Assembly: GCF_000427965.1 (NCBI RefSeq) | Contig: NZ_ATZA01000010.1 | Span: 62,001-126,000 of the forward strand | Direction: 5' to 3' | Source of the DNA: Olivibacter sitiensis DSM 17696 | GTDB lineage: Bacteria; Bacteroidota; Bacteroidia; Sphingobacteriales; Sphingobacteriaceae | DNA: 64,000 bases | Translations under genes and position numbers: made by a program | The notes under the pieces: model-generated | Told to the model about the DNA's origin: nothing | Databases searched by the model: none | What the model saw: the letters and a program-made list of their open reading frames with translations, nothing else | Shown here: piece by piece, positions 23,367 to 27,579 of the stretch | How the letters are laid out: each line of letters opens with the position of its first letter | How positions within the stretch are numbered: the first letter of the stretch is position 1

Positions 23367-23374
23367 TATCTTTG
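23367..23374 (+). promoter_or_regulatory. promoter of the export operon (leaderless type)
   Basis: TATCTTTG followed by CATC and then ATG at 23379; the predicted start of transcription coincides with the start codon. This is the same arrangement as at padR. It is the only strong -7 box seen between the repeat region and the ABC/HlyD/TolC genes. Confidence 0.6.
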
Positions 23375-23378
23375 CATC

Positions 23379-23708
23379 ATGATGCAGATATTCAGGCATG
23401 TTTTGGTTTACAGGTTTCTTTGCTTATTACTGATAAGCATTTTTTCCCTCAAAACGGGCGGGTCCGTCGTTACCCTTAAGCCTAGCAAATACCTGCTGAG
23501 CTTCAAAGTATGTGCGGATTCGGAAAAAGAAGAAAAAAAAGAATCCGAAAAACCATTTAAGAGCTTGGATTACCTTGTCACCGGCGAAAGCCAGGCGGAG
23601 TGGATGACCGGAAGCGACCTAAGAGCAACTAGCCAATTGCACGATTGCTCTTATCAGATGGATCATTTCGGCTCCGTACCATCACCCCCTCCAGACCAAA
23701 TGGCCTAA
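23379..23708 (+). CDS. small hypothetical protein heading the export operon, 109 aa
   Basis: The N-terminus MMQIFRHVLVYRFLCLLLIS carries a hydrophobic segment (about 8-26), a signal or anchor sequence. A basic/acidic stretch (KVCADSEKEEKKESEKPFK) follows, and the tail contains HDCSYQMDHFGS and ends SVPSPPPDQMA. No family is recognised. ATG at 23379 is preferred over upstream frame extension because of the -7 box 4 nt before it; ATG at 23382 is equally possible. The next gene, the ABC membrane protein, begins 66 bp downstream. It may be a partner of, or cargo for, the transporter; that is inference from position. Confidence 0.55.
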   Translation: MMQIFRHVLVYRFLCLLLISIFSLKTGGSVVTLKPSKYLLSFKVCADSEKEEKKESEKPFKSLDYLVTGESQAEWMTGSDLRATSQLHDCSYQMDHFGSVPSPPPDQMA

Positions 23709-23774
23709 TTCTCTCCTTTAGTTTCGGCAGCGAAAACTTCGTCTGCAAAATATTTTATTTAATCTAATCTTCTT

Positions 23775-24776
23775 ATGATGAAAGAACATGGAGGTCCTAC
23801 GCCCTTGCAAAGGCTTATAGCCTTATTGCATCCAGAGCGCAGAACCATAAACTATATTTTCTTATACGCCATTGTAATTGGCATTTTTAGTCTCAGCATC
23901 CCGGTGGGCATAACGGCTGTATTTAACCTGCTCAGCAACGGAGCCATGTATGGGTCTACCTATATTCTTATTATAGTAGTCATTGCTGGGGTGGTTATTG
24001 GCGGTAGTCTGCTCATTGGCCAGCTCAGCTTGGTGGAGTACCTGGAGCAAAAGATCTTCCTGAAAACTTCCTTGGAGTTTGCTTACCGCCTTCCCCGCAT
24101 TAAACGCTCCGAACTGGAAGGCGAAAACCTCGTCGAACTGGTAAATCGTTTTTTTGATGTGGTCGTTATCCAAAAAGGCATCATCAAACTTTTGATCGAT
24201 ATCATTGCGGCTATTGTCACTGTTTTCTTCAGTGTGGTGTTACTGTCCTTTTACCATCCTGTATTTATGACATTCGGCCTGGTAATCATCATCATCGTGA
24301 CCCTTATATTGGTGGTCTACTACAAGCGTGGCCTGCTTACCAGTATTGAGGAGTCGGAGCATAAATACGAGACGGTGGCCTACCTGGAAGAAGTGGCCGC
24401 GGATATCGATACCTACCGTGGAAATGAAGAACTGATGAAAAAAGTCGTCGTAGACACGGATCATATTACGAGCAAGTACCTGAGAGCCAGAAATGAACAT
24501 TTTTCTATTCTGAAACGATTCTTTGCGGGATCGGTGTTGATACGCACCCTGCTTTTCGGTGCCATGTTGCTCTTGGGGTCTTATTTTGTGATAGAAAGGG
24601 AAATGACCTTTGGCCAGTTTGTGGCTGCCGAGGTAGTGATTGTTCAGATAGGTTATGCCATAGAGAAGCTGTTGACCAACCTGAATACCATCTTCGATAT
24701 GCTGACTGGAACGGTCAAACTTGCCGTTATTACTGATCTAGAGCTGGAAGAGGAGGGCACGCGTCATGGGAAATAA
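23775..24776 (+). CDS. ABC-type exporter membrane domain protein lacking an ATPase domain
   Basis: 333 residues with six predicted helices (about 27-50, 57-80, 137-160, 164-187, 250-274, 280-300) and the long cytoplasmic loops of a type-1 ABC exporter domain. The chain stops at ELEEEGTRHGK, where the linker to the nucleotide-binding domain would normally begin; no Walker A, ABC signature or Walker B is present. This is not a frameshift: the next gene starts 11 bp inside this one (ATG at 24766), leaving no room for an ATPase domain. With the following HlyD and TolC genes it looks like a type I-like export apparatus that must borrow an ATPase or works without one. ATG at 23775 or 23778. Confidence 0.85.
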   Translation: MMKEHGGPTPLQRLIALLHPERRTINYIFLYAIVIGIFSLSIPVGITAVFNLLSNGAMYGSTYILIIVVIAGVVIGGSLLIGQLSLVEYLEQKIFLKTSLEFAYRLPRIKRSELEGENLVELVNRFFDVVVIQKGIIKLLIDIIAAIVTVFFSVVLLSFYHPVFMTFGLVIIIIVTLILVVYYKRGLLTSIEESEHKYETVAYLEEVAADIDTYRGNEELMKKVVVDTDHITSKYLRARNEHFSILKRFFAGSVLIRTLLFGAMLLLGSYFVIEREMTFGQFVAAEVVIVQIGYAIEKLLTNLNTIFDMLTGTVKLAVITDLELEEEGTRHGK

Positions 24777-26124
24777 AGCACACTTAGCTCCGAAACTCCC
24801 GAAATGGGAAGAACTGTCGAGCTCGGGGCGCTCGCAACTCCTGAAAAACAAGGGGCCTTTTTTGCTTGGCCGCATTTTAATGGTCGCGATTCTGATATTT
24901 GTCATTATCCTGTTTTTGCCTTGGCGGCAGACCATTCCCGGTAGGGGAACGGTGACGGCACTTCGGCCAGAAGATCGTCCGCAAACCGTTCAGAACCAAA
25001 TTGGTGGGCGTATTGAGCGCTGGGCCGTCAAGGAGGGAGCAGAAGTGAAAAAGGGAGATACCATCTTGGTCATTTCGGAGACCATGCAATCGTACTTCGA
25101 CCCCGACTTGCAGCTCCGCCTAAATGAACAGCTTTCCGCAAAAGTAAGCAGTGAAGAAGCCGCCGATCAGAAAATGAATGCTACGAAGGCACAAATAGAT
25201 GCGCTAACGAGCGGCTTGCGCTACCAGCTGGAGGCCGCACAAAACAAGGTGGCACAGTCCCGCAACTTGGTAAAGATAGATAGTGCCGACTTGGTGGCCA
25301 TAGAAAGTTTTTTCGAAACAAGCAAAGCACGTGTGGAGCGCTATGAGCAAGGGTATAAAAATGGTCTTTTTTCGCTTACAGACATTGAAACGCGTCGCCT
25401 CAACCTGCAGAACGATCAGGCAAAAGTAGTGAGCGCACAAAACAAGCTGATCAATTCTCGGCAGGCATTGACGAATGCGATTATTGATCTCGATAATATT
25501 CGGGCGAAATATAACGAGTCTCTCGCCAAGGCACAGTCAGACATGAGCTCGGCCTTATCCAGCAAGGCATCTGCACAAGGAGATATCGCGAAGCTACGGA
25601 ACGAGATAGCCAATTTTGACGTGCGCCGGGGCCTGTATGTGGTTCGGGCTCCCCAAAATGGGTATGTCGTCAAAACACTGAAAGCAGGTATTGGGGAAAA
25701 TATCAAGGAAGGAGAGTCGATCGCCACCTTACAGCCTAAGACACCCTTGATGGCGGCCGAGCTGTATGTCGATGCCATAGACGTGCCATTGATCATCAAT
25801 GAAAGTGAAGCACGTCTTCAGTTTGAAGGCTGGCCATCGGTGCAGTTTTCTGGCTGGCCGGCAGTTGCCGTGGGCACTTTCTCGGGTACGGTGACCGTCA
25901 TAGATAGGGTGAGTAGCCCCAATGGTAAGTACCGCTTGCTGGTACGTCCAACCGATCCGGTTCCGGATAAGGACGAACCTTGGCCCGAAAAATTGCGCCT
26001 GGGCTCCGGCGTATTTGGTCGGGTTATTCTCGATGCTGTACCCGTTTGGTACGAGATATGGCGGCAGCTTAATGGCTTTCCGCCCAGCTTGGAAAGGGAA
26101 CCGAAAACAGATGAAGGAGGTTAG
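24766..26124 (+). CDS. HlyD family periplasmic adaptor (membrane fusion) protein
   Basis: 452 residues: a short cytoplasmic N-terminus, one membrane helix at about 33-52, a biotinyl-lipoyl-like half at about 75-105 (NQIGGRIERWAVKEGAEVKK), a long alpha-helical hairpin at about 115-285, the second lipoyl half (VRAPQNGYVVKTLKAGIGEN) and a beta-barrel domain to about 420. It would link the inner-membrane ABC-like protein to the outer-membrane channel. Its start overlaps the permease gene by 11 bp, indicating translational coupling, and it ends 6 bp before the TolC gene. No substrate clue is visible. Confidence 0.9.
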   Translation: MGNKAHLAPKLPKWEELSSSGRSQLLKNKGPFLLGRILMVAILIFVIILFLPWRQTIPGRGTVTALRPEDRPQTVQNQIGGRIERWAVKEGAEVKKGDTILVISETMQSYFDPDLQLRLNEQLSAKVSSEEAADQKMNATKAQIDALTSGLRYQLEAAQNKVAQSRNLVKIDSADLVAIESFFETSKARVERYEQGYKNGLFSLTDIETRRLNLQNDQAKVVSAQNKLINSRQALTNAIIDLDNIRAKYNESLAKAQSDMSSALSSKASAQGDIAKLRNEIANFDVRRGLYVVRAPQNGYVVKTLKAGIGENIKEGESIATLQPKTPLMAAELYVDAIDVPLIINESEARLQFEGWPSVQFSGWPAVAVGTFSGTVTVIDRVSSPNGKYRLLVRPTDPVPDKDEPWPEKLRLGSGVFGRVILDAVPVWYEIWRQLNGFPPSLEREPKTDEGG

Positions 26125-26130
26125 CGACTT

Positions 26131-27579
26131 ATGGCAATAAGAAAAATGATCATTCTGCTGATAGCCTTATGTGCCTTGCCGGCAATGAACAAGGCACAGG
26201 AAAACAAAGGGGATTTCGAATTGAAGGAGTTTACTCTTGGCGACCTTGAGGAACTGCTGATGGCCCATCACCCTGTGGTAAAGCAGGCAAAACTATTGAG
26301 TGAGGCCGCACGAGCCCAGGTGGCGCAGGCACGGGGAAATTTTGACCCGGCATTGAAGGCCGCTTTCAGCAATAAATACTTCGGAAACACGAATTACTAC
26401 AATGATTGGAACAGCGAGCTGAAGATACCCATATGGTTGGCAGGGGCAGACCTAAAGGTGGCCTACGATAGAAATGTGGGGGCACGCACCAATCCTCAGA
26501 CCGCGACTTCCACGTCGGGACTGTCGGGAGTAGGTGTCAGCATCCCCTTAGGTCAGGGCTTCATTATCGATAATCGTCGTAGTACGCTGTGGCAGGCAAA
26601 GGCAATGCTAGGATATGCCGAGGCGGAACAGGTAAAGCAGATCAATGCCATTTGGTTTGCCGCAGTGAAAGACTATTGGGACTGGTACTATGCCTACCGC
26701 CAATATGAGCTTCTACAGGAAGGCGTGAAACTGGCTGAAACGAGGTTTAATGCCATCAGCATGCAGACGGTTTTGGGAGATGCACCTGCCATCGATTCGG
26801 TAGAAGCCGCTATTACGGTGCAGGAACGCAAAATCGAGCTGGCTAAATACACAGTCGATCTCAAAAACAGCCGATTGGTACTGTCCAACCACTTATGGGA
26901 CGAAAATCAGCAACCCTTGGAATTGCCTGACTATGCCATACCGGCAACCGTTGATACTGCACTGTTGCAGCCCGATCCGACGATGCTCAGCAGCCTGCTG
27001 GACCAGGCACAAGAACAACATCCCGAACTGTTGAAATTGGAAAGTAAGAGACAGCAACTGGACATCGAGGAAAAATACCGCAAGGAACTGCTGAAGCCAA
27101 AGCTGAATGTAGCCGGAACGCTCATCTCCAGTCGCAGGAACTTGAACGAGTCTATGCCATATCCATACGATTTCAATTGGAATAACCACAAGCTAGGCTT
27201 TGAATTTGCCTTTCCACTGTTCCTACGCGCAGAACGCGGCAAGCTGAAGGAGGTGAGACTTCGGCAGGAAGAGCTGCAGTACGATCAGCTCATCACCGGG
27301 CGCAGCATAAACAACGATATCACCACCAAGTACAACGACCTTACGGCGTACAGCAATCAGTTGCAACTACAAGTGCTAAGCATCAATAACCAGCAGGTGT
27401 TGCTCAATGGTGAACAGCAGAAGTTTGAGCTTGGAGAAAGCACGTTGTTCATCATCAACAATAGGGAAAGTAAGTTGATTGATATGAGAATGAAACGGGA
27501 AGGCCTGATAACGAACTATAATAAAACCCTTGCCGAATTGTATTATAAAGCGGGGACTAGGTGGCAAGGGGATAAATGA
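26131..27579 (+). CDS. TolC family outer membrane efflux protein
   Basis: 482 residues with a signal peptide ending near MNKAQ (about residue 23), followed by the two outer-membrane-efflux repeats: HHPVVKQAKLLSEAARAQVA and HPELLKLESKRQQLDIEEKY are the usual first-helix signatures of each half. It would form the trimeric duct of the export apparatus with the HlyD protein encoded 6 bp upstream. It is the last gene of the operon; a 140-bp gap with no obvious terminator follows. Confidence 0.9.
   Translation: MAIRKMIILLIALCALPAMNKAQENKGDFELKEFTLGDLEELLMAHHPVVKQAKLLSEAARAQVAQARGNFDPALKAAFSNKYFGNTNYYNDWNSELKIPIWLAGADLKVAYDRNVGARTNPQTATSTSGLSGVGVSIPLGQGFIIDNRRSTLWQAKAMLGYAEAEQVKQINAIWFAAVKDYWDWYYAYRQYELLQEGVKLAETRFNAISMQTVLGDAPAIDSVEAAITVQERKIELAKYTVDLKNSRLVLSNHLWDENQQPLELPDYAIPATVDTALLQPDPTMLSSLLDQAQEQHPELLKLESKRQQLDIEEKYRKELLKPKLNVAGTLISSRRNLNESMPYPYDFNWNNHKLGFEFAFPLFLRAERGKLKEVRLRQEELQYDQLITGRSINNDITTKYNDLTAYSNQLQLQVLSINNQQVLLNGEQQKFELGESTLFIINNRESKLIDMRMKREGLITNYNKTLAELYYKAGTRWQGDK

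Follow-up and report, generated by a model that had tools for sequence, protein, structure and literature searches.

What energises a three-part export pump whose operon encodes no ATPase? Bacterial pumps of this sort are normally powered by ATP. The question is raised by an operon of Olivibacter sitiensis DSM 17696, which lies within a stretch of 64,000 nucleotides (contig NZ_ATZA01000010.1, positions 62,001 to 126,000; this whole stretch is hereafter the window, and coordinates are counted from its first letter). Here an HlyD-family periplasmic adaptor and a TolC-family outer membrane protein follow a permease that consists of the membrane domain of an ATP-binding cassette (ABC) exporter and lacks the nucleotide-binding domain (NBD). 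We found that the ATPase half has been lost throughout a bacterial lineage that is mainly environmental. In our judgement the case is evenly balanced that the operon encodes a tripartite exporter that has shed its ATPase, no longer hydrolyses ATP and is probably driven by ions.

The operon and its permease

The operon comprises the following features, all on the forward strand:
23367–23374 (+): putative promoter element TATCTTTG, which fits TAnnTTTG
23379–23708 (+): small protein of 109–110 residues (ATG at 23379 or 23382, from the list of open reading frames; the stop codon ends at 23708)
23775–24776 (+): NBD-less ABC-exporter permease, 333 residues, six long helices (PF00664 alone; fold match)
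24766–26124 (+): HlyD-family periplasmic adaptor, 452 residues (HlyD_3 and Biotin_lipoyl_2 over cut-off)
26131–27579 (+): TolC-family outer membrane efflux protein, 482 residues (OEP, PF02321, E 1.5e-36)

The permease and HlyD genes share 11 bp, and a gap of 6 bp separates HlyD from TolC. The initial annotation, made from the sequence alone, had described an ABC membrane domain without an ATPase in an HlyD–TolC operon, and was right in this as well as in its coordinates, overlap and gap. It had also proposed a profile search of the permease for ABC_membrane and ABC_tran. In Pfam (E≤1), ABC_membrane (PF00664) was the sole match of the 333-residue protein (residues 27–290, E 7e-11, 42.7 bits against a cut-off of 28), and ABC_tran was absent. 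The top NCBIfam matches of the permease were peptidase-type and type I exporters (TIGR03796 with E 4.5e-12, far under cut-off).

The AlphaFold2 model of the permease (mean predicted local distance difference test score, pLDDT, 70.1; predicted template modelling score 0.59) has six long helices, and the chain terminates at the linker that would join the membrane domain to an NBD. Residues 8–333 of the model align with solved ABC-exporter membrane domains (VIA-align; best Z 23.5, root-mean-square deviation, rmsd, 4.3, 319 residues), among them the HlyB/HlyD complex 8dck (Z 21.1, rmsd 4.2, 309 residues) and PrtD 5l22 (Z 20.2, rmsd 3.7, 307 residues). Foldseek matched the model to TM287/288, PCAT1 and McjD, with PCAT1 among the top matches; SbmA was absent from the best 50 rows of either fold search, which is no test of likeness. 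Profile match and fold alignment place the permease among ABC-exporter membrane domains (PF00664, type IV fold) and bear out the six-helix ABC-exporter-type protein first recognised.

The downstream genes are of equally familiar kinds. HlyD scored over cut-off with PF13437 (HlyD_3, 34.8 bits against 22.2) and PF13533 (Biotin_lipoyl_2, 37.6 against 29.8), and under the NCBIfam cut-off with TIGR01843 (E 4e-19); TolC scored 126.4 bits with PF02321, for which the cut-off is 22. The adaptor and channel that mark type I secretion are therefore both present in the operon, and the energising ABC ATPase of such systems was found neither in it nor in its neighbourhood (Pfam on the window proteins, and the 81 loci described below).

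Spread of the NBD-less form and decay of the ATPase

The short permease is present in all five genomes of the genus, that of O. sitiensis included, at 80–100% identity. Of 399 genomes of the taxonomic family, 158 match it at E≤1e-8, and among the 150 matches listed, 95 (in 92 genomes) are NBD-less, with frames of 333–380 residues and 59–100% identity. The other 55 listed relatives are at most 41% identical; 52 of them are 551–611 residues long and three are short. Two of these three, in genomes G068 and G166, are cut by a contig edge, as is a frame in G637, and none of the three cut frames was accepted as an NBD-less gene. The third short match, in G171, was likewise rejected: it is a remnant (locus L260, 1468–2567) in which a membrane-domain frame runs into the tail of TolC and HlyD is gone. 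In ten sampled NBD-less relatives Pfam found ABC_membrane in all (eight over cut-off) and ABC_tran in none. Named genera with NBD-less loci are Olivibacter, Sphingobacterium, Pedobacter, Mucilaginibacter, Dyadobacter, Chitinophaga, Paraflavitalea and others.

We compared gene order in 81 loci, made up of the window and 80 loci kept out of 118 relatives in a scan of named genomes. The permease is NBD-less and 330–371 residues long in every one. HlyD adjoins it in all 81 (80 by a scripted distance rule; in L181 the overlap is 83 bp), mostly with an overlap of 8 or 11 bp, and TolC adjoins in 80. An NBD anywhere in the locus was seen in only 9 of the 81, in frames of 105, 388, 543 or 576–585 residues at inconsistent positions, which speaks against an NBD split off into an adjacent gene; the stand-alone ATPase gene that a survey of homologues might have revealed does not consistently occur in these loci. 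A further 45 NBD-less loci mostly have the same gene order, the exceptions being L074, with an HlyD frame of only 253 residues, and L096, without TolC. An isolated truncation, a frameshift or a sequencing error is ruled out by the five genomes of the genus, the 95 NBD-less homologues and the 81 loci, and the view of the initial annotation that the missing domain is not a frameshift artefact holds. Three genomes (G222, with L080/L081; G351, with L095/L096; G420, with L091/L092) carry two NBD-less operons each, about 22–24 kb apart and on opposite strands; in each pair the small gene with the PPP ending (see below) occurs in one copy only, and L096 is the copy without an adjoining TolC.

The permease gene is under purifying selection, because its nonsynonymous divergence (dN) from five related loci is only 0.10–0.28 at saturated synonymous divergence (dS), a saturation for which no dN/dS ratio is given. 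Length and sequence are conserved in 46 aligned proteins, with a mean column identity of 77% over the whole length. That the operon is a decaying, non-functional remnant is hardly credible in the face of this dN, the three intact genes and conservation across several families, even if the catalytic domain is lost and true remnants such as L260 do occur in the family. NBD-less and full-length forms rarely share a genome (at most 2 of the 158 matching genomes, G312 and G317; the second match of each falls outside the listed ones, and at most five candidates were scored per genome), and this near-exclusive distribution fits functional replacement of one form by the other.

What, then, is the state of the ATPase in relatives that still have one? 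Twelve relatives at 33–42% identity share the permease–HlyD–TolC order, and Pfam found ABC_tran in all ten that were scanned. In the NBDs of 36 distinct relatives the Walker A pattern GxxxxGK[S/T] is mostly present (32/36), while the SGG signature and the consecutive Walker-B D and E are each absent from all 36 (D alone in three, E alone in six) and the H-loop His occurs once. Control NBDs from ten ABC exporters of the O. sitiensis genome had SGG in 7, DE in 8 and His in 9. The 36 are the best-scoring loci, not a random draw, and another six of the 42 aligned rows are repeats. Substitutions in these pseudo-NBDs are regular, with the signature often LPxSxxxK, Walker B often ED or ND and the H-loop often SND; judged by such motifs, ATP binding may remain and hydrolysis is unlikely. 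The protein family is common, with at least 150 matches in at least 149 of 395 genomes of the class at E≤3.1e-156, NBD motifs having been read in a minority of these matches.

A different picture emerged from 20 members chosen from other classes of the same phylum, which have Walker A in all 20, Walker-B DE in 19, the H-loop His in 16 and SGG in none; HlyD was seen in 18 of the 20 stretches and TolC also in 18. These members probably hydrolyse ATP with an altered signature. They were drawn from the lower-scoring of 27 matches from the phylum, of which five were left aside, and a few are near-copies; two more of the 27 (L324 and L325) have the degenerate type of NBD, so the boundary between active and degenerate members is not exactly that of the class.

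Other variants were also seen among the longer relatives. L245 (whose gene is shared with L290), L246, L247, L263, L267 and L268 have eroded or shortened NBDs, in frames of 514–691 residues without a Walker A pattern, and look intermediate between pseudo-NBD and NBD-less forms. Many pseudo-NBD and probably active members (L026, L027, L187, L210, L212, L283–L291, L328–L344) carry an N-terminal extension of about 120–260 residues ahead of the membrane domain; Pfam gave no match to it in the three that were scanned (L026, L027, L334), and at a guess it could be a degenerate C39-like domain. In L282–L284 (genomes G573, G514 and G446, of one family) the family member is preceded, at a distance of 90 bp to 1.4 kb, by an ABC exporter of 600–610 residues that has Walker A and LSGGQ, and a heterodimer partner is conceivable there.

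A second NBD-less arrangement was found in nine genomes (L273–L281), where a single frame of 744–781 residues encodes the membrane domain joined, at the former site of the NBD, straight to HlyD, with TolC next. Pfam on three of these fusions found HlyD_3 over cut-off in all, ABC_membrane below cut-off in two and ABC_tran in none. The fusion would make topological sense, as the C-terminus of the permease and the N-terminus of HlyD should both be cytosolic. In a tree of 81 membrane domains (81 of 131 rows) the NBD-less clade forms one group (support by the SH-like approximate likelihood ratio test 100), with the pseudo-NBD protein L289 nearest to it (98), and the HlyD fusions form a separate group (100), next to which stand two decayed proteins (87). 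When the 20 probably active members were included (68 of 154 rows), they grouped together as a single clade (99), and the placement of the NBD-less clade with L289 was unchanged (99). Joining both NBD-less groups costs 31.3 log-likelihood units and is not rejected (approximately unbiased test, p 0.098). The NBD was likely lost twice in the family; a certain double loss was discarded, since the free tree splits the groups, yet the test keeps a single clade. Rooting on C39 exporters was discarded as unsafe, given their very long branch. The direction would be from active through degenerate to lost, because regaining the motifs is unlikely.

Source of energy

How could such a permease work? It would act as a dimer by alternating access, and the swing once driven by ATP would be driven by (de)protonation, or by binding of another ion, at membrane carboxylates; the cargo, probably a small molecule or peptide, would be passed via HlyD to TolC. 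Five genes, chosen by eye from those that lie upstream of fused or full-length relatives, encode TetR regulators (Pfam), neighbours that would suit efflux of a drug or metabolite type. Candidate carboxylates are E286 and E297, perhaps also D142 and E88, near R257 and K298. Of these, E286 sits in a hydrophobic part of helix 6 and R257 in one of helix 5, and E297 is at the end of such a stretch. The numbers of sequences with each charge were as follows:
NBD-less (35 sequences): E286 35, R/K257 35, E/D297 35, K298 35
HlyD fusion (9): E286 9, R/K257 9, E/D297 9, K298 9
Pseudo-NBD (39): E286 39, R/K257 39, E/D297 39, K298 39
N-extended pseudo-NBD (7): E286 7, R/K257 7, E/D297 7, K298 7
Decayed (12): E286 12, R/K257 5, E/D297 6, K298 7
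Probably active (20): E286 19, R/K257 20, E/D297 18, K298 15
C39 (22): E286 0, R/K257 0, E/D297 3, K298 0
Own-genome exporters (10): E286 0, R/K257 0, E/D297 0, K298 0

The charges at 286, 257, 297 and 298 appear from this distribution to be a mark of the family, older than or independent of the loss of the motor. That they arose along with ATPase loss was ruled out, as they are already in the probably active group. The C39 exporters, which come from related genomes, lack E286, R/K257 and K298 in 22 of 22. A similar charge pattern is reported for YddA and SbmA in excerpts of one study (PMC13316013).

Ion coupling is suggested by analogy with other ABC-type membrane domains. MsbA truncated of its NBD transports ethidium on a proton gradient (excerpts of PMC4979069), and E314 in TM6 of LmrA is required for proton-coupled transport, its membrane domain being a secondary-active translocator (excerpts of PMC6155054). 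SbmA-like transporters (SLiPTs) are described as proton-driven and as proposed descendants of ABC exporters that lost their NBDs (excerpts of PMC13316013).

Several points weigh against ion-driven export. The membrane charges do not track ATPase loss (E286 in 19/20 and R/K257 in 20/20 of the probably active members) and may have a structural role or one in binding the cargo. The confidence of the permease model is middling (pLDDT 70). The precedents for ion coupling are either laboratory truncations (the membrane domains LmrA-MD and MsbA-MD) or an importer (SbmA). Finally, the coupling motif for NBD docking (E121, R125 and R/K215) is kept in 35/35 NBD-less sequences; the fusions are mostly without it (E121 in 0/9, a basic residue at 125 in 3/9 and at 215 in 0–1/9 between two alignments). 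The structure alignment has 39 rows and omits L148, whose reference extended past a stop.

Invariant coupling-helix residues are what would be expected if the membrane domain borrowed a stand-alone ABC ATPase that docks on them in trans. It is common for ABC systems to encode their membrane and ATPase parts in separate genes, and the O. sitiensis genome has 63 PF00005 matches, of which a considerable share are in frames of about 200–360 residues. Among 29 loci (L214–L242) taken of the 43 non-permease matches in this genome, however, no NBD of the family type was found: they score higher with a general than with a family NBD profile, the exception, by 7 bits, being a 559-residue frame with two NBDs (10 of the 29 scored loci had served to train the general profile). 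The best non-permease matches of the family profile in the genome are ordinary exporters, and stand-alone NBDs reach at most 84 bits. Together with the rarity of a locus NBD (9/81, in no consistent place) and the already degenerate fused NBDs of the sampled relatives, this makes a borrowed ATPase unlikely, if still a serious candidate.

The fusions bear on another alternative, namely that the permease does not pump but serves HlyD and TolC as an anchor, be it a passive gate, a scaffold or a sensor, and that flow is downhill or powered elsewhere. A fusion to HlyD is compatible with anchoring of the adaptor as the main task of the permease, and the pseudo-NBDs, which mostly retain Walker A, might serve as a nucleotide-bound switch. 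Nevertheless, the six-helix fold of an exporter, charges in the membrane and a sequence conserved from end to end are much for an anchor, and the fusions retain the membrane charges while losing the NBD-docking motif; we consider a non-pumping role improbable.

The initial annotation had offered either an ATPase in trans or another source of energy. Both options stand, and the evidence leans towards a source other than ATP, because the ATPases of the sampled full-length relatives are degenerate, one NBD-less group is fused to HlyD and the own-genome loci examined hold no family-type NBD; the docking motif goes against this lean. The fuller account, in which the system is a natural ion-gradient-driven tripartite exporter of the ABC fold whose family first hydrolysed ATP, then had a conserved pseudo-ATPase and finally lost the motor altogether, probably on two occasions, one of them by fusion to HlyD, is one that we hold tentatively, as somewhat short of an even prospect.

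The small first gene and known systems

Could the first gene of the operon reveal the cargo? The small protein has a hydrophobic N-terminus, an E/K-rich middle and a C-terminal VPSPPPD in the window (mostly VP[ST]PPP[DN] in relatives), and gave no Pfam or NCBIfam match. A relative of it lies beside the permease in all five genomes of the genus. In the 81 loci the motif-bearing small gene was found in 50 and is missing by the motif rule from 31. The four-gene order first described therefore holds for permease, HlyD and TolC and is not fixed for the small gene. TAnnTTTG, which we take to be the −7 promoter consensus of Bacteroidota, starts 12–38 nucleotides ahead of the small-gene start in 35 of 39 loci (12–20 in 31), and about 1.2 of 39 are expected from letter shuffles of the same upstream stretches; the 39 are the small-gene loci that fit the start rule, 11 of the 50 being left out, and include some near-copies.

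The initial annotation had suggested that this protein may be exported, which would make the operon a dedicated secretion system with the small protein as its cargo. The small gene is likely on the same transcript, given the TAnnTTTG ahead of it, and the hydrophobic N-terminal stretch and conserved C-terminal motif would also suit a cargo. Against this, the gene is missing from the 31 loci, a protein of this kind is encoded ahead of a gene of the sulfate permease family (SulP) in two of the five genomes of the genus (Pfam on L322 only), and an N-terminal signal or anchor would route the protein via Sec and not via the pump. The small protein is an unlikely cargo, and we see very little prospect for a dedicated system of this kind; the gene looks like one for an optional, transporter-associated leader protein. 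The SulP-linked small genes (L322:1504–1836, +; L323:1501–1836, −) also encode a hydrophobic N-terminus and end in SVPTPPPNC, and small leader proteins with a PPP ending may be a sign of several operons for transporters. In L108, L110, L111 and L113 (Sphingobacterium multivorum and relatives) an unrelated-looking open reading frame of 146–170 residues lies 61–83 bp before the permease, at the place taken in other loci by the small gene with the PPP ending.

The operon resembles HlyB–HlyD–TolC and PrtD systems in combining an ABC-exporter fold, HlyD and TolC in one operon, with a model that aligns with 8dck and 5l22. Unlike them, it has no ATPase domain, no consistent nearby ATPase gene and no recognised cargo gene. 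It is likewise close to PCAT1 and NHLM-type ABC exporters, of which kind TIGR03796, its top NCBIfam match (below cut-off), is one, with PCAT1 a top Foldseek match; the permease, however, has neither a C39 domain nor an NBD. With SbmA/BacA (SLiPTs) it shares an NBD-free ABC-exporter membrane domain and conserved membrane glutamates, but SLiPTs, as described in excerpts of PMC13316013, are importers with an extra TM0 and lost coupling helices, whereas the window system has HlyD and TolC, belongs to another Pfam family and keeps the coupling motif. Other hallmarks of SbmA-like proteins were not found either: PF00664 was the only match at E≤1, and the model has six long helices without an extra TM0. 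LmrA-MD and MsbA-MD are also lone membrane domains, with proton-coupled transport observed experimentally (excerpts of PMC6155054 and PMC4979069); unlike those artificial truncations of ATP-using exporters, the form in the window is natural, conserved and found beside HlyD and TolC. The components are of known kinds, and the ATPase-less tripartite combination with its graded relatives is new; in the open-licence PubMed Central literature searched, the family was not described in any title or abstract start.

If this ion-driven account is true, the operon would add an energy class to the ABC, RND and MFS types of tripartite pump, and would be for export what SbmA is for import. Ion-gradient pumping by an ABC-exporter membrane domain has so far rested on LmrA-MD and MsbA-MD and on the importer SbmA; in the lineage described here the same truncation has arisen by evolution and persists in many species from several families of Bacteroidota. 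The relatives, whose ATPase is probably working, degenerate or missing next to the same HlyD and TolC genes, make the question directly accessible to experiment and provide a natural series for the conversion of a primary pump into something else.

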